Below are positions 9,911-18,126 of a stretch of 64,000 nt of DNA, one piece after another. Where the stretch lies: contig NZ_CP017042.1 of assembly GCF_001717585.1 (NCBI RefSeq), forward strand, positions 1,449,001-1,513,000, given 5' to 3'. The position numbers and the translations under genes were made by a program. This DNA is from Selenomonas sp. oral taxon 920. GTDB lineage: Bacteria; Bacillota; Negativicutes; Selenomonadales; Selenomonadaceae. The stretch's first letter is position 1. Every line of letters starts with the position of its first letter. The notes below the pieces were generated by a model that saw nothing but the letters and a program-made list of their open reading frames with translations, did not search any database and was not told where the DNA came from.

Positions 9911-11806
9911 TCAGAATCCGAGTGTCCGACCGATCTGATAGACGAGAAGTGAAACAAACCAAGCAATCGCGAACATATAGACGGCAGAGAAGCCGACCCA
10001 TTTCCACGCGCCCGTCTCTTTCTTGAGCGTACCGAGTGACGTGACACACGGCGTGTAGAGCTGTGAGAACACCATGAAGGCAAGTGCCGAAAGACTTGTA
10101 AACGCTGCGCCCATTCCCGTCTGGAGCATCGTGGAAGCCGTATCGACTGCATCTGCCGCCTCTGTCGAGACATCGGCAACACCGTAGAGAATGCCGATTG
10201 TCGCAACAACCGTCTCCTTCGCCATGATGCCGGAGAGGACAGCCGCGCCGGCCTCCCACGTTGCAAAGCCGTGGAATGTGAAGAGCACAGACATCCAGCT
10301 GCCAAGTGTTGCGAGAATGCTCTCCTCGATCTCGCACGGCCCGCTGAAGTTGTAGTTCGACATAAACCAGAGGATGACCGATGCCGCAAAGATAATCGTA
10401 CCGGCCTTGATGAGGTATCCCTTGCCCTTATCCCATGTCTCCAAGAGAACCGAATTCATATCGGGCATACGGTACGGCGGAAGCTCCAACAGGAAGGTTG
10501 AGCCCTGTGCCTTGAACATGGTCGAGCCGAGCAGCTTTGCCACAACGATTGCCATGACCATGCCGATAACATACATGAGGAAGACAACGTTCGCCGCATT
10601 ATCGGGGAAGAACATCGCTGCAAACAGTGCCATGATCGGCAGCTTCGCACCGCACGTCAGGAATGGCGTAACGAGGATCGAGACCATGCGGTCTTTTTCC
10701 GAGTCGAGCGCACGTGCACCCATGATGGCAGGAACAGCGCAGCCGAAGCCCATCATCAGAGGCATGATGCCCTTGCCCGTCAGACCGCAGCGGCGCATGA
10801 TCGGATCGGTGATGAACGCGATGCGCGCCATGTAGCCCGTGCCGTCGAGGAACGAGAGGCAGAAGAACAGGACGAAGATGAGCGGGACGAATGTCAGCAC
10901 CGAGCCGACACCCGCGATGATGCCGTCCGTGACGAGCGAGACCATCCAGTCCGCAACCCCCGCCGCCACAAGCGAATCCTTTGCAAAGTTCAAGAACTCA
11001 TCATTGATGAGTACCTCAAGCTCGTCGGCAATGGGCTGTCCAATCCATGTAAACGTGATCTGAAACACAGCATAGAGAATCAGGAAGAAGATCGGCAGCG
11101 CAAGAGCTCCATTTGCAAGGAAACGATCAATCTTCTCCGAGCGCGTTGCACCGACACTTTGAACCGTCACCGCCTGCGCCATGACCTGATCGATGAGTGC
11201 GTAGCGCGCCTCAATGATCGCCTCCTCCTTCTCCGCCTCCGTACGCGAACTGCCCTCGATTTCATGGATCTTCGCAATGTGCTCCTTGACAAGATCACTC
11301 GGCTGATACCTCGCCATGACCGTACTCGTAAAGACATCGAGCAGCGTCTTTGTACTCTTGCTGCTGCGCCCCGTCGTCTCGACCGTGGGCATGCCGAGTG
11401 CCTCTTCGAGCTTCGCCGTGTTGATCTTGATGCCGCGCCGCTGTGCATCGTCCTGCATATTGAGGTCGATGAGGAGCGGAATCCCCTTCTCAAGGAGCTG
11501 CACCGTGAGGAAAAGATTGCGCTCGATGTTTGAACTGTCCACAACATTCAGGACGAGATCCAGCTTCGTATTCGTCAGATAGTCAATGACGATTTTCTCC
11601 TCCGGCGAGCGTGCGTTGATGCTGTACGTCCCCGGAAGATCAACGATGGAAATTGCCCGCCCCTTATAATGCGTGTGGCCGATCTTCTTGTCGACCGTAA
11701 CCCCCGGCCAGTTGCCGATTTTCTGACGTGCTCCCGTCAGCGCGTTGAAAATGGTCGATTTACCGGTATTCGGATTGCCGGTCAGAGCGACTGCAAGTGT
11801 TGACAT
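9911..11806 (-). CDS. feoB: Ferrous iron transporter FeoB
   Basis: 631 aa. The N-terminal G domain has G1 GNPNTGKST (~10-18), switch I with NWPGVTVDKK and G3 DLPGTYS. A helical region (~165-215) follows, then a membrane part with the two Gate/nucleoside-recognition-like repeats, including CGAKLPIMALFAAMFF. FeoB imports Fe2+ across the inner membrane. The length fits the shorter FeoB form (E. coli FeoB is 773 aa). Downstream of feoA, gap 14 nt. Confidence 0.96.
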   Translation of the reverse strand: MSTLAVALTGNPNTGKSTIFNALTGARQKIGNWPGVTVDKKIGHTHYKGRAISIVDLPGTYSINARSPEEKIVIDYLTNTKLDLVLNVVDSSNIERNLFLTVQLLEKGIPLLIDLNMQDDAQRRGIKINTAKLEEALGMPTVETTGRSSKSTKTLLDVFTSTVMARYQPSDLVKEHIAKIHEIEGSSRTEAEKEEAIIEARYALIDQVMAQAVTVQSVGATRSEKIDRFLANGALALPIFFLILYAVFQITFTWIGQPIADELEVLINDEFLNFAKDSLVAAGVADWMVSLVTDGIIAGVGSVLTFVPLIFVLFFCLSFLDGTGYMARIAFITDPIMRRCGLTGKGIMPLMMGFGCAVPAIMGARALDSEKDRMVSILVTPFLTCGAKLPIMALFAAMFFPDNAANVVFLMYVIGMVMAIVVAKLLGSTMFKAQGSTFLLELPPYRMPDMNSVLLETWDKGKGYLIKAGTIIFAASVILWFMSNYNFSGPCEIEESILATLGSWMSVLFTFHGFATWEAGAAVLSGIMAKETVVATIGILYGVADVSTEAADAVDTASTMLQTGMGAAFTSLSALAFMVFSQLYTPCVTSLGTLKKETGAWKWVGFSAVYMFAIAWFVSLLVYQIGRTLGF

Positions 11807-13835: not shown

Positions 13836-14615
13836 TCAATTCAGATGCGGAAGAACATCTGCCATCTTACCGCAGCTTGCAATATCGGTCTCATAGCCGA
13901 AATGCACGAGATCAGCGGCAAGCGCGGCATCCGTTACAGTGAATCCCGAAAGCCCGTCTGCCCCGTAGTCAAAGAGGCAGGGGTGCATGGGCACCGAGGG
14001 CCCGACGAGAACGGTTACCGCATTCCTTGCGAGCTCCAAGAGGCGCGGCAGAGTCTTATTCGCAAACGTCGCTCCCGTTATAAAGACAAAGTCCTGCTGC
14101 GGCAGAAGGAACTCCGCCGCCTCCGCAGGATAGTCCCCCCACTCGGGCTGCATCTCAAGGATGGAAAGCTCGCAGATCGGCTCCCATTTCTTTTGGAAAT
14201 GGGGAAAATGTCCGACAACAGCAACCTTCTTCCCGCGAATCTGCTCCATGTACATGGCGAATGCTTCAAGCTTCTTGCGCTCGCCAAGTGTCTTGGCAGA
14301 GGCATTGTCTCCGTGAAATCCCTGCATCGCCTCTACCTTCGACGGCTGATTGTAAAAGGCGTTGATGGCAGCGGCGGCAATGGATGCCTCCTGTCCCTGC
14401 CACGAGCGCACATACTCTCCCACCTCACGCAGCGAACAGCCGAGAAAGCTCTCCTTGCGCAGACGCGGACGGCTGTACGCAGGGATTGTCATGCAGACAC
14501 CGACCAGATCACCGGCGCGGACGTACGTCCACGGACGCCCGACAGCATAGTCATCGATGTGGATATCCTGCGGCAGCTCATCGATGATCTCGTCGTAAAG
14601 ATTCCAGTAGTTCAC
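13836..14615 (-). CDS. DUF364/DUF4213-type putative heavy-metal chelation protein
   Basis: About 259 aa. An N-terminal DUF4213-like part (DLVGVCMTIPA, SLREVGEYVRSWQGQEASIA, then an AINAFYN segment) precedes a Rossmann-like DUF364 part (KVAVVGHFPHF, FVFITGATFANKTLPRLLE, VLVGPSVPMHPCLFDYG). The family is described only as putative heavy-metal chelation and often lies near metal-cofactor genes. The start is the GTG at 14615, because GGAGG lies 7 nt upstream; an ATG at 14633 lies before that site. It follows the nitrogenase-like operon after 110 nt and has its own promoter. Confidence 0.78.
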   Translation of the reverse strand: MNYWNLYDEIIDELPQDIHIDDYAVGRPWTYVRAGDLVGVCMTIPAYSRPRLRKESFLGCSLREVGEYVRSWQGQEASIAAAAINAFYNQPSKVEAMQGFHGDNASAKTLGERKKLEAFAMYMEQIRGKKVAVVGHFPHFQKKWEPICELSILEMQPEWGDYPAEAAEFLLPQQDFVFITGATFANKTLPRLLELARNAVTVLVGPSVPMHPCLFDYGADGLSGFTVTDAALAADLVHFGYETDIASCGKMADVLPHLN

Positions 14616-14649
14616 AAAAACACCTCCATTCATCCCTTATGTTGACTTT

Positions 14650-14678
14650 AGGATAACACAGCCGCCTATGAGATTCAA
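14650..14678 (-). promoter_or_regulatory. Promoter of the DUF364 gene
   Basis: TTGAAT (14673-14678) and TATCCT (14650-14655) on the minus strand with a 17-nt spacer. It shows that the DUF364 gene can be expressed separately from the nitrogenase-like operon. Confidence 0.55.
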
Positions 14679-14725
14679 CAGTGAATAGGGACGAAAGAAA
14701 ATGCTTATTTCATAAAACAACCGTC

Positions 14726-16018
14726 TTATCCGTGCAGACCTGCGCGGACAGATAGCTCGCGCCTGAGGACGCTCCCGTTCCAGAGCGTGTCCTCGATGTG
14801 CCGTGCGCCGCGCAGCCCCATAAACGGCTGATCCGAGATATGCAGACGATCCACGACGGGATAGGCGACGGGAATGTAGAGCATCCTGTGTGGGTCGGCA
14901 AGCACGGACTCGCTGCTGCTCCCTATGAGCAGCCCACGTTCCATTGCCGTGAGGAGTTCCTGTGCCCGCGCCGTGTCCGTCTCCGAGAGCTGCTCGTCCG
15001 CGATCTGTGCGGCGGCAGCGTCCTCGCGCAGCTGCGCTGCAACCGCGAGATGGCGCACATCCGCCCACTCTGTCCGCAGCGCCTCGGCAAGTCCCCACGC
15101 CGTCGAGCGCGGTGTACGGATGAGCGCGGTATCAAAGAGCAGTTCTCCCCAGGTATTCTTGAGATCGTTGATCCGCAGGAAATCCCTGCGCTCCGCCGCC
15201 GCAATCTCCGCCACGGCATCCTCCCCGCGCGTGGGCGGCAGCGCGGCAAAGATCGCCGCAAGCCACCGCCGCGTTCCCGCACGGCCGTACGGGGGAAGCG
15301 GCGCGATATACGGCGTGCCGCAGCGCTCCTCTATATATTTTGCCGCCGGAAGTCCGAGCTCGTCATGCACAACGATATTGAGCTCTGCCTGTGCAAGATC
15401 GTCAATGCTCGCGAGCGGCATATCGCAGCCGAATACGTGGCGCACCTCATATCCTGCCCCCGTCAACAGGCGTACAAGCTCCCGTGCATCGTTCTCACCG
15501 TTGTAGTAGGACGAGGTCATGCCGATGAGGTTGACCCCGCGCCGCACCTCTCCCCGTGTCTCTCTGAGCAACACATCGAGCGTCGCGCAGGAGGCACGCG
15601 CCCATCCGTCTGCAAAGCTGCCGATCAGTCCGCCGCTGTCAATGGCGACTACGGGGCAGGTCACCCCCGCCGCACGTGCAATCGCTCCCACATCGTCGCC
15701 GATCAGGCTCGCAGAGCTGCCGCTGATGACGGCGAGCAGCGCGGGCGGCTGCTCAATATGCGGCTGCAGTGCCTCGCGCAGATACGCCTCCGCACCGAAC
15801 ACGATTGCATCGTTGTCGAGCTGCGTACACTTCATGCGGTGCGAGATGTCGCTCTGGCTCTGCTCGATGTGCCGCTGCGTAAAGAGATAACACCACAGCG
15901 GCCCGTTGACGATCACGGCACAGCCGCGCAGCCCTGCGAAGAACGCCGCCGCGCCTGTCAGTGCACAGCTCTCCATCCACACGGACATATCGTCGAAGGA
16001 GAGAAATTCCTCATCCAT
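14726..16018 (-). CDS. Nitrogenase component 1-like protein (NifK/NifN-side homologue)
   Basis: 430 aa of the oxidoreductase/nitrogenase component 1 family. The N-terminus resembles NifK: C18 in ESCALTGAAAF, C43 in VNGPLWCYLF, then KCTQLDNDAIVFGAEAYLRE and ISGSSASLIGDD (~98-109). The third P-cluster Cys position before IGDD is Ser here (S102), while extra Cys occur at 33 and 64. It probably pairs with the 16011-17318 product to receive electrons from the NifH-like protein. GGAGG lies 8 nt before the ATG, which overlaps the upstream gene by 8 nt. The substrate is unknown. Confidence 0.82.
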   Translation of the reverse strand: MDEEFLSFDDMSVWMESCALTGAAAFFAGLRGCAVIVNGPLWCYLFTQRHIEQSQSDISHRMKCTQLDNDAIVFGAEAYLREALQPHIEQPPALLAVISGSSASLIGDDVGAIARAAGVTCPVVAIDSGGLIGSFADGWARASCATLDVLLRETRGEVRRGVNLIGMTSSYYNGENDARELVRLLTGAGYEVRHVFGCDMPLASIDDLAQAELNIVVHDELGLPAAKYIEERCGTPYIAPLPPYGRAGTRRWLAAIFAALPPTRGEDAVAEIAAAERRDFLRINDLKNTWGELLFDTALIRTPRSTAWGLAEALRTEWADVRHLAVAAQLREDAAAAQIADEQLSETDTARAQELLTAMERGLLIGSSSESVLADPHRMLYIPVAYPVVDRLHISDQPFMGLRGARHIEDTLWNGSVLRRELSVRAGLHG

Positions 16019-17318
16019 AGATCAACCCTCCTCTGTCCGTATGCCGATAGAGTACATGCTCCATATCCTCGATGAGCTGCCGCTCCATCGCCCAGCCGAC
16101 CGTGGGCAGTTTGCCGAGCAGGATCTGCCGCAGCTCTGCGTCCACGAGTTCATGTGTGGTAAAGACGAAATCCACCGACCGCAGCAGTTCCTCACTCGCA
16201 GGATCCTCCACCGCAAGGATCGGTACGTCCGTGCACTGACGCAGCCCTTCCTCCACTGCTGTACGCTGTTCCTCGGTAAAAAGCGCGAGGAGGATGATTC
16301 CGGCGAGATATACGCCCGCCTTTTCGATCAGGCGCAGGAGAATCTCCGGCTGCAGCCAGTGCAGCTCGCGCCCGACGACGAGCACCGTACGCCGCTCGTC
16401 AAGCATCTCCCGCGCACGCACGAGAACGCGCTCGAACGCCTCCTCCTCACGTCGGATCACCTCCTCCGCCTCCGACGCGCGCCCGCATTGTGCACCGATG
16501 CAGCGCAGCCAATGCGCCGTCTCCTCCGCACCGCCTGCAAACGCCTCGGCAAAGTACGGTGTGCCAAAGCGCGTATGCAGCTCCTCTGCAAACGCGATGA
16601 GCATCTCCTGCTTCTCGTCCGACATCGCACTGCCGAGCACAATGAGCAGCTCCGCCTCCGGTACCGCCTGTATCTCATCCAGCGGCGTATAGGTGGGAAA
16701 CTGTACCGTAAGCTGCAGCCCGATCCCCGCGAGCAGACGCTTCAGCTCCTGCACATAGGCACTGTAGAAGCCGCCATAGTCCCCGAGAAACGCCACCGTC
16801 CCCTGCCGCATCCGCGCGGGCGGCTGCATAAAGCGGTCGGTCAGCACACGCGCAACCGAGAGATAGCCGTCAAAGGACTCATTGTCTAAAAAACCGCTCG
16901 TGGGGACTGCCACAACGGGCAGACCAAGTTCCTCCTCCATCTCCTCCGCCACTGCCCGCGTATCATCTCCGATGATGCCGCTCACGCAGGAACCTCCGAT
17001 AAAGACAGCACGCGGATGGTACTTCTCCGCCGCATAGCGGACGCACGCACGCAGCCGATCCACCGCACCAAACACCGCATCCCCCTCGCCGATGCCGCTC
17101 GTGAGGAGTGGTACGGGCGACGGCGGTGCATACGTGCCCGCACCGACCAGACGATGAAAGCTGCCGACATCCTTTTCACGCACCACATGGGCGCAGGAGC
17201 GCGGACTGTGAAAGATGACCAGTGCTCCCCGCACGTACGAGAGCGCCCACCAGACAGCGGGCATGCTGCAGCTGCACTGCGCACGCCGCACGCCTGCGCG
17301 TTTTACCTCAATCGCCAT
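16011..17318 (-). CDS. Nitrogenase component 1-like protein (NifD/NifE-side homologue)
   Basis: 435 aa. Three Cys match the P-cluster-type pattern: C15 or C17 in [14 protein letters not shown]42 in HSPRSCAHV and C111 in [13 protein letters not shown] see no equivalent of the NifD Cys275 or His442 that hold the FeMo cofactor, so canonical nitrogen fixation is unlikely. Later segments, such as [20 protein letters not shown], fit the Rossmann-like repeats of the family. ATG 17318 is chosen because it opens MAIEVKRAG; the frame extends further only inside the NifH-like gene. It overlaps that gene by 11 nt, a tight operon. Confidence 0.82.
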
Positions 17319-18126
17319 ACTGCTCCACCAAGTCCTCCAATTCCTCAAACGCCATCGGTGTCGGCACCGCAAAGTGTTCGTTGCGGTCAATGTCTTTTGC
17401 CAGCTGCACATAGCACTGCGTCTGTTCTGCGTCCGGTGCGTAGGCGATGAGCGTCTGCCGGTGAATCTCCGCCTCATGCACAGCACGCGACCGTGGGATA
17501 TAGGCGATGAGCTGCGTCCCGAGCCGCGCGGCAAACGCCGTCAGCAGCTCCTCCTCATGCAGCACATCACGTCCGTTGCCGATGATGCCGCCGAGCTTTA
17601 CTTCCCCGCGTGCGGCGAAACGACACACGCCCTTGGCAATGTTGTTTGCAGCATAGAGCGACATGAGCTCGCCCGAAGAGACAATATAGATCTCCGATGC
17701 ATAGCCCTCGCGGATCGGTACGGCAAAGCCGCCGCAGACCACATCGCCCAGCACATCGTAGAGAACCACATCGACATCGTCGAAGGCATGCAGTGCCTTC
17801 AGACGCTCAAGCGCGACATTGATGCCGCGCCCCGCACACCCGACACCGGGATCCGGGCCTCCCGCCTCGATGCAGCGGATGCCGTTCCACCCCATATGCA
17901 CAAGATCGCCGAGCGTCAGCTGTGTCCCCTTTTTCACGCGCTCCACATCCAGTACCGTGGACGGCGCAATGCGTCCGAGCAGCAGCCGCGTCGAGTCATT
18001 CTTCGGATCACAGCCAATCTGGCAGACCCGCCGCCCCATCTGCGAGAATGCGGCAGACACATGCGCCGCCGTCGTCGACTTTCCGATGCCGCCCTTGCCG
18101 TAGAACGCAATCTTCTTCAATCCCAT
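17308..18126 (-). CDS. NifH-like ATP-dependent electron carrier (nitrogenase iron protein family)
   Basis: 272 aa. P-loop [10 protein letters not shown] (9-18), CDPKNDSTR (39-47), and both [4Fe-4S] ligands: C97 in GVGCAGRGI and C131 in [16 protein letters not shown], matching Cys97 and Cys132 of nitrogenase NifH. As a dimer it should bind one [4Fe-4S] cluster and pass single electrons to the partner complex on ATP hydrolysis. First gene of a three-gene operon. The Shine-Dalgarno site is GAGGAGAG. No nifB, nifE/N accessory or nifV genes are present, so it belongs to the nitrogenase-like rather than the nitrogen-fixing group. Confidence 0.9.

Follow-up and report, generated by a model that had tools for sequence, protein, structure and literature searches.

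A nitrogenase-like gene set of an oral Selenomonas probably acts on a B12-type ring compound

Introduction

What is the substrate of a nitrogenase-like enzyme that does not appear to be built for nitrogen fixation? The question is raised by three overlapping genes in a stretch of the genome of Selenomonas sp. oral taxon 920 (contig NZ_CP017042.1, positions 1,449,001 to 1,513,000; 64,000 nucleotides, hereafter the window), which encode a NifH-like protein (H) and its D-side (D) and K-side (K) partners. In the excerpts of the literature drawn on here, characterized nitrogenase-like enzymes act on N2, chlorophyll precursors, an F430 precursor, C-S compounds, or isethionate. A sequence-only reading of the window had assigned the three genes to the nitrogenase-like reductases of unassigned function, with an unknown substrate. 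We report that the window H-D-K system probably reduces a B12-type ring compound and not nitrogen gas, a reading that draws on a second complete H-D-K set in the same genome and on the gene neighbourhoods of related sets across the class Negativicutes.

Results

The three genes and the gene that follows them lie on the minus strand of the window (13836-18126):

17308..18126, minus strand: H, NifH-like ATP-dependent [4Fe-4S] reductase; 272 amino acids; PF00142, 353.7 bits
16011..17318, minus strand: D, NifD/NifE-like subunit; 435 amino acids; PF00148, 188.8 bits (residues 16-435; scanned minus the first 15 residues)
14726..16018, minus strand: K, NifK/BchB-like subunit; 430 amino acids; PF00148, 194.9 bits
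13836..14633, minus strand: DUF4213/DUF364 protein, next gene 3' of K; 265 amino acids; PF04016, 122.1 bits, and PF13938, 58.8 bits

The Pfam matches, with PF00142 and PF00148 scoring well over their cut-offs, and the overlaps of 11 nucleotides (H/D) and 8 nucleotides (D/K) confirm the gene set as the sequence-only reading had described it, and a NifH-like ATPase with both cluster cysteines together with a PF00148 pair places it in the nitrogenase-like superfamily. The start of the window H is an ATG, and a TTG two codons downstream corresponds to the start of the paralogous H described below.

Cluster cysteines were counted in 62 D, 62 K, and 47 H family proteins gathered from the class and aligned with NifD and NifK of Rhizobium tropici (locus L176), with rows for NifE, BchN, BchB, and group-IV-type proteins as well. 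C97 and C131 of H are invariant (47/47), as are C17, C42, and C111 of D (62/62), which align with the NifD P-cluster cysteines C72, C98, and C164. The cysteine pattern read earlier from the letters therefore stands, except that its "C15/17" resolves to C17 as the ligand-position cysteine of D, since C15 is kept in only 50 of the 62 proteins. In the window K, C18 and C43 align with NifK C70 and C95, and Ser101 (codon 15716-15718), which had been overlooked, occupies the position of NifK C153, a column that is Cys in 53 of the 62 K proteins of the family and Ser in nine, among them that of the window. The window copy has five of the six P-cluster-position cysteines (D 3/3, K 2/3) and so falls short of the three-plus-three arrangement of a P-cluster-type D-K interface, whereas the paralogous set has all six; it is from these positions that we infer the type of cluster at the interface.

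The ligands of the iron-molybdenum cofactor (FeMo-co) are missing from D, as had been claimed. The column of the FeMo-co cysteine (Cys275) holds Gly in the window D, and Gly, or Ser in one of the rows shown, in the family, while NifE and the group-IV-type references keep Cys; no window D residue aligned with His442 in the alignment to NifD. The absence of nifB, the presence of which elsewhere in the genome had been named as a finding that would count against the earlier assignment, holds genome-wide, with a best NifB model score of 23.8 bits against a cut-off of 343.65. For NifEN, the sole PF00148 match in the genome beyond the two H-D-K sets scored below the cut-off (18.4 bits). Because the FeMo-co cysteine, a His442 equivalent, and a NifB over cut-off are all lacking, FeMo-co-type N2 reduction is not expected, and judged by its residues the enzyme is not built for nitrogen fixation.

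The genome (2.44 Mb in two contigs, 99.8% complete) contains one other H-D-K set, which the sequence-only reading had missed (copy 1; C1:843697-847073, where C1 denotes the contig) and which is 87% (H), 62% (D), and 61% (K) identical to the window copy. Copy 1 lies in an array on one strand that begins with a receptor-like remnant, a PF01497 binding protein, a radical S-adenosylmethionine (SAM) protein, a TonB receptor, ChlI, ChlD, and CobN, and continues with a binding protein, H, D, K, a PF01497 binding protein, an ATP-binding cassette (ABC) ATPase, a BtuC-like permease, a TonB protein, a TonB receptor, and a TIM-barrel protein. CobN scores over its model cut-off (946 vs 822 bits); the best model for the TonB receptor that precedes ChlI is the B12 receptor (219.7 bits) and that for the permease is BtuC, both matches being below cut-off. 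A cobalamin riboswitch heads the array (C1:831055-831247), 4.8 kb upstream of ChlI and 12.4 kb upstream of H, and is followed by a hairpin and T-run, as read by eye; a second follows the array (C1:856141-856319), and there are six in the genome in total. Copy 1 is thus found in an RF00174-headed, same-strand run of B12-type transport and processing genes, for which an operon is predicted. Antisense open reading frames placed over ChlI and H by a composition-based caller overlap homology-supported genes.

Two further features were noted at the ends of this array. The receptor-like remnant, the first gene after the head riboswitch (L206:4917-5378, corresponding to C1:831416-831877), encodes 153 amino acids that read like both ends of a TonB-dependent receptor and has no Pfam match. 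Past the second riboswitch, and before another TonB receptor is reached, there is a transposase-like gene pair (integrase-core and a weak HTH_Tnp_1; L207:11004-12265).

The association of the family with CobN extends across the class. A two-sequence D model run against 380 genomes of the class matched 140 at E <= 1e-20 and 75 at E <= 1e-50, the latter being taken as the family; the 65 genomes between the thresholds, mostly with weaker homologues but including one with a truncated family D and CobN (G073), were dropped. CobN (PF02514) was present in 113 of the 380 genomes at E <= 1e-50. Both proteins occurred in 70 genomes, D only in 5, CobN only in 43, and neither in 262 (Fisher p 7e-40, n=380, the genomes not being independent of one another). 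When CobN was shuffled within the 13 mixed genera (76 genomes, from a hand-typed table that excluded members without a displayed genus), 34 co-occurrences were observed vs 27.1 expected (p 6e-5).

When an alignment of 16 D proteins was used to scan contigs from 84,980 species, it found 70 loci, of which 68 are labelled as Negativicutes groups, one as Pelotomaculum (L171), and one as a metagenome-assembled genome (MAG) of the Acholeplasmataceae (L136). Because the scan rests on two conserved peptides, it misses remoter relatives, and the true range may be wider. The positions of H, D, and K were fixed by tblastn, as long antisense open reading frames disturb gene calling in these GC-rich genomes. 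The D stretches of the 70 loci carry genes for a binding protein (39), CobN (37, all within 10 kb of D), FecD (36), FecE (34), a TonB receptor (31), ChlI (30), ChlD (29), a radical-SAM protein (26), CbiK-like proteins (10), and corrinoid adenosyltransferase-like proteins (6); these are tblastn counts with seeds from uncurated clusters, each named from one representative, and contig ends shorten many stretches. CbiZ was counted at 27 of the 70, an upper bound, with no open reading frame seen in some Selenomonas loci. The neighbourhood comparison across Negativicutes that the sequence-only reading had called for thus places CobN, ChlI/ChlD, TonB and importer genes, and riboswitches near the family.

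Some loci hold additional relatives of these proteins. Some of these genomes also hold a second, deeper family of D-K pairs (L074:2252-4799, L188, L190, L191, and L192), with D proteins scoring 260-406 bits to the family model; in L074 the pair lies near TonB-receptor, CbiZ-like, and TIM-barrel genes. In Pelosinus-type loci (L088:3529-4893 and L091:10671-12029) an extra K-like protein is encoded apart from D-K, beside a corrinoid adenosyltransferase-like gene.

As a rule, a cobalamin riboswitch represses supply genes while corrinoid is abundant. In 8 of the 70 loci (L125, L127, L136, L137, L152, L158, L160, and L166), among them those of Sporomusa ovata DSM 2662 (L127), Phascolarctobacterium faecium, Anaerospora, and a Veillonellaceae MAG, such a riboswitch ends no more than 600 bp upstream of the first gene of the family. 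The 70 loci were scanned with a sequence profile built from Rfam-found riboswitches, and Rfam, which covered 27 of them (seven picked because the profile had matched there), confirmed all eight. In 60 further family loci, whose species partly overlap the 70, a riboswitch is likewise upstream in 10, and in Selenomonas felix (L111) one precedes the longer array. The density near the family, 39 riboswitches in 1.24 Mb by the sequence profile, compares with 6 in the 2.44-Mb genome by the covariance model, the two methods being different. Six Phascolarctobacterium loci (L121, L124, L126, L129, L133, and L139) have a divergent MerR-type gene upstream of H and no riboswitch by the profile; because the MerR-type gene replaces the riboswitch there, regulation may differ within the family. 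In two Schwartzia loci a ZMP/ZTP riboswitch lies just 3' of K (L118:12656-12736 and L117:12646-12726).

None of the three proteins reaches the cut-off of any NCBIfam nitrogenase-type model matched. The best such model for D is nifE (106.4 bits vs a cut-off of 505.1), and H scores 220 bits against BchL (cut-off 345), 174 bits against BchX (cut-off 331), and 354.5 bits against CfbC (cut-off 402). A scan of the whole genome with the BchN model returned two weak matches, which are the two family D genes, and none over cut-off. The best PDB match of D is methylthio-alkane reductase, at 82.1 bits. In midpoint-rooted trees, a 100/99 branch divides the family D proteins from NifD/NifE, BchN/BchY, and group-IV-type references, one of which shares about 50% identity with the MarD fragment in the PDB, and the K proteins are likewise separated from their references by a 100/99 branch. 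In the K tree as drawn, the family is on the same side of the root as BchB/BchZ (97/88), a placement for which long branches call for caution. The H tree, the check on placement that had been suggested for this locus, gives a weak split between family and references (62/78) with very long BchL/BchX branches. CfbC, Rhodospirillum rubrum MarH, group VI, and characterized MarD and IsrD were outside the trees.

The nearest fold to the predicted K (predicted local distance difference test score, pLDDT, 89.4) is BchB of protochlorophyllide reductase (Z 38.8, root-mean-square deviation 2.7, 408 residues aligned), followed by MarK (Z 36.6), AnfK (34.5), and NifK (34.1 at most), a preference for BchB over MarK of 2.2 Z only. 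The predicted D (pLDDT 85.5) matches MarD (25.9), NifD (24.4), BchB (23.9), and NifE (23.8), all within about 2 Z. CfbD is missing from the D and K comparison lists, as shown.

The window set differs in several respects from copy 1 and its counterparts. Eight other loci in the genus carry a D-K pair 83-95% identical to that of the window; all eight (8/8) are without an adjacent H, and each of these genomes has H in its copy-1 set. Among the 62 K proteins, Ser101 occurs exactly in the nine copy-2 loci, all of which also have Ser at K position 12. Among themselves the 12 copy-1 H proteins of the genus are 88-99.6% identical, and with them the window H shares 84-88% identity (75% with those of the more divergent sets L062 and L063), so that it is an old or fast-evolving copy and not a fresh duplicate. 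Ratios of nonsynonymous to synonymous substitution (dN/dS) of 0.13-0.14 against three relatives show that the window D and K are maintained by purifying selection. These comparisons mark the window set as a second copy that is derived and has an altered cluster site in K.

The gene 3' of K, also passed over by the sequence-only reading, begins after a gap of 92 nucleotides, and its DUF364 product has the PDB relative 3l5o. It belongs to the system only by position; a DUF364 gene is near the copy-2 D-K in 5 of 9 loci (the window, L048, L049, L051, and L053). Beyond it are an aldo-keto reductase gene on the opposite strand and FeoB (9911-11806, approximately 3 kb from H-D-K), both of which are outside the set. 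The window FeoB is 99% identical to the FeoB next to the copy-2 D-K in two related species (L051 and L053), a value that exceeds the D or K identity there.

Discussion

The assignment of the window genes to an unassigned nitrogenase-like reductase is upheld by the model scores, by the D and K clade that stands apart from the references used, and by the lack of FeMo-co ligands and of a NifB over cut-off. The accompanying statement that the substrate is unknown was incomplete because only the window copy had been considered; the family as a whole points to cobalt tetrapyrrole (corrinoid) metabolism. Given the gene neighbourhood, a likely substrate of the family is an imported tetrapyrrole that is metalated by CobN-ChlID and partly under cobalamin control. 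We propose that the family is an ATP-driven reductase of a corrinoid or another cobalt tetrapyrrole and that the window copy acts on this substrate or on one closely related to it, a reading toward which the balance of the evidence tips slightly. From kinship, the substrate of the window copy would follow that of the family, and its differing surroundings leave room for a shifted role.

In the proposed mechanism, a TonB receptor and a BtuFCD-type importer would bring in the cobalt tetrapyrrole, most likely a corrinoid, and CobN-ChlI-ChlD would insert or exchange the metal with ATP. The ATP-loaded H dimer would dock and pass low-potential electrons one at a time to the Fe-S cluster at the D-K interface, and the organic substrate would occupy the cavity that holds FeMo-co in nitrogenase, as in dark-operative protochlorophyllide oxidoreductase (DPOR), chlorophyllide oxidoreductase (COR), and CfbCD. 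H-D-K may then reduce either the macrocycle, at a ring double bond as those three enzymes do, or Co(II) to Co(I) before adenosylation, two possibilities that cannot be told apart from sequence alone. Excerpts of PMC7242693 describe how, on the aerobic route to B12, the cobalt inserted by CobNST is then taken from Co(II) to Co(I) by the flavoenzyme CobR so that adenosylation can follow. H-D-K could fill the CobR step in an anaerobe. Expression would be partly under cobalamin-riboswitch control. The substrate class, the direction of the chelatase, and the bond reduced are thus putative assignments. A narrower version, in which a corrinoid is the natural substrate, H-D-K is a Co(II)-to-Co(I) or corrin-ring reductase partnering CobN-ChlID, and the Ser-bearing second D-K borrows the copy-1 Fe protein in relatives, is offered tentatively, as possible but less than likely.

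Several observations weigh against a cobalt tetrapyrrole substrate. By the profile scan 62 of the 70 loci have no riboswitch directly upstream, although some stretches begin at the first gene, and at 33 of the 70 no CobN was found in the examined stretch. CobN is missing from five D-positive genomes, and it occurs in 43 genomes that do not have the family. For B12, haem, and siderophore models alike, the scores of the TonB receptors are under the cut-off, and the D fold comparison gives no preference for tetrapyrrole enzymes. The window copy has no adjacent chelatase gene, and there is no RF00174 match at gathering score anywhere in the 64-kb window. Nor does a gap at either of two B12 steps call for H-D-K: CbiC is found in this genome, as in 333 of the 380, and so is CbiJ (253.3 bits vs a cut-off of 28.6). 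Replacement of CbiJ by H-D-K was considered and is rejected for this genome, and because CbiC and CbiJ are already present the system seems to have been added for salvage or remodelling and not to supply a missing step.

An alternative is that the system serves in acquiring iron from haem or porphyrins, with the array importing haem, a CobN-type protein removing the iron, and H-D-K reducing the iron or the porphyrin. Haem is plentiful where oral species live, the TonB receptors and FecBCD-type importers would suit haem as well as B12, and FeoB is close to the window copy. HmuS of Bacteroides, of which the system would be an anaerobic counterpart, is a CobN homologue that takes iron out of haem, as excerpts of PMC12583661 describe. 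The same source gives the HmuS reaction as free of ATP, however, whereas the ChlI and ChlD genes near D suggest an ATP-dependent chelatase. The CobN of this genome also scores 789.5 bits to a CobN structure vs 384.5 to HmuS, and cobalamin riboswitches stand at the head or flank of several operons, so that we regard a role in haem use as unlikely. The system might instead help to make a new metal-tetrapyrrole cofactor or metallophore, which the TonB and ABC genes would export and bring back in. Biosynthesis of this kind has been proposed for group VI nitrogenase paralogues, which are described as putatively involved in tetrapyrrole cofactor biosynthesis or modification (excerpts of PMC9391474 and PMC11257099). 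The radical-SAM genes near D would fit such a pathway, and two of their representatives match tetrapyrrole-modifying AhbC/NirJ-type models below cut-off; but the same two score best to a peptide-maturase model, also below cut-off, and no dedicated early biosynthetic genes were recognized beside D in the stretches examined. Cobalamin control is also more natural for corrinoid supply, and a biosynthetic role seems to us improbable to much the same degree as one in haem use.

It is less improbable, though still rather unlikely, that the window copy has shifted its substrate, D-K acting with DUF364 and an ABC importer on another metal chelate or serving as a scaffold or carrier for a cluster or tetrapyrrole. 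In the copy-2 loci the adjacent H is missing from all eight relatives, no CobN or riboswitch was found in the stretches examined, a BtuC/FecD-like importer and DUF364 lie near D-K in several cases, and the window K has lost the Cys101 ligand. D nevertheless retains its three cysteines, D and K are still 62/61% identical to copy 1, and H has been kept or regained in the window species, which argues for redox turnover. That the system is instead a nitrogenase or one of its characterized relatives (DPOR, COR, CfbCD, or methylthio-alkane or isethionate reductase) would account for the shared fold and cysteine frame, yet it is very hard to reconcile with scores under every cut-off, the 100/99 branches in the D and K trees, the loss of a FeMo-co cysteine that group-IV-type references keep, a K subunit where CfbCD has none, and a genome with NifB nowhere over cut-off.

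If the reading of the family as a reductase of cobalt tetrapyrroles is correct, corrinoids would join the list of nitrogenase-like substrates, and a hard reduction that the aerobic pathway leaves to CobR would have an ATP-driven answer. It would also explain why nifH-like genes occur without NifB in this oral Selenomonas relative, and it provides a substrate class to test for genes that might otherwise be labelled as nitrogenase of unassigned function. The paralogue with Ser in place of Cys is a natural variant for asking which cluster such enzymes need.

In the open-licence literature searched, by titles and the openings of abstracts, no paper was found that joins nitrogenase-like genes to CobN or cobalamin riboswitches. 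A clade linked to CobN-ChlID and cobalamin riboswitches and a Ser-substituted second copy therefore appear to be new within that literature, group VI being compared by description only. The group VI paralogues reportedly trace to Meheust et al. 2020, and the putative tetrapyrrole link that they share with the family is known from the descriptions in later papers. Uncharacterized nitrogenase-like clades with variable cysteines were noted in Firmicutes in 2012 (excerpts of PMC3464626).

With respect to CobN, two parallels lie outside the nitrogenase-like enzymes. The Bacteroides hmu system likewise has a CobN-family protein in an uptake operon, that for haem, but PMC12583661 nowhere uses the word nitrogenase, and its excerpts name ChlI/ChlD as partners of ChlH and not of HmuS. 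The other parallel is operon-2 of Dehalobacter restrictus: excerpts of PMC4285132 describe a corrinoid-salvage operon with a cobalamin riboswitch, FepBCD/BtuCDE-like importers, CbiZ, CobN, and magnesium-chelatase-type subunits, induced 346-fold on corrinoid starvation, although the main text there does not contain the word nitrogenase. Dehalobacter is a known case of CobN and chelatase subunits in a salvage operon under B12 control, and among nitrogenase-like enzymes a tetrapyrrole link is known for DPOR, COR, and CfbCD and predicted for group VI.

Among the nitrogenase-like enzymes, MarHDK and IsrHDK of group IV resemble the family in that the best PDB match of the window D is methylthio-alkane reductase, but the group-IV-type reference D proteins keep the FeMo-co cysteine where the family has Gly, and no NifB is over cut-off in this genome. 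CfbCD is likewise an ATP-driven reductase of a metal tetrapyrrole, and the window H matches the CfbC model, below cut-off; CfbCD works without a K subunit (excerpts of PMC11423573), whereas H, D, and K are all present here. DPOR (BchLNB/ChlLNB) and COR (BchXYZ) have the same H plus D-K architecture without FeMo-co, and the K model is nearest to BchB. As in Roseinatronobacter, where bchN, bchB, the chelatase H subunit, and bchL are found together, the family lies near the large subunit of a class-I chelatase; DPOR differs in that BchB has Asp36, whereas copy 1 has Cys at all of the P-cluster positions. On our best reading the family works like DPOR, COR, and CfbCD and belongs to none of them, with CfbCD, whose CfbC and CfbD are outside the trees, set apart by model score and by the K subunit.

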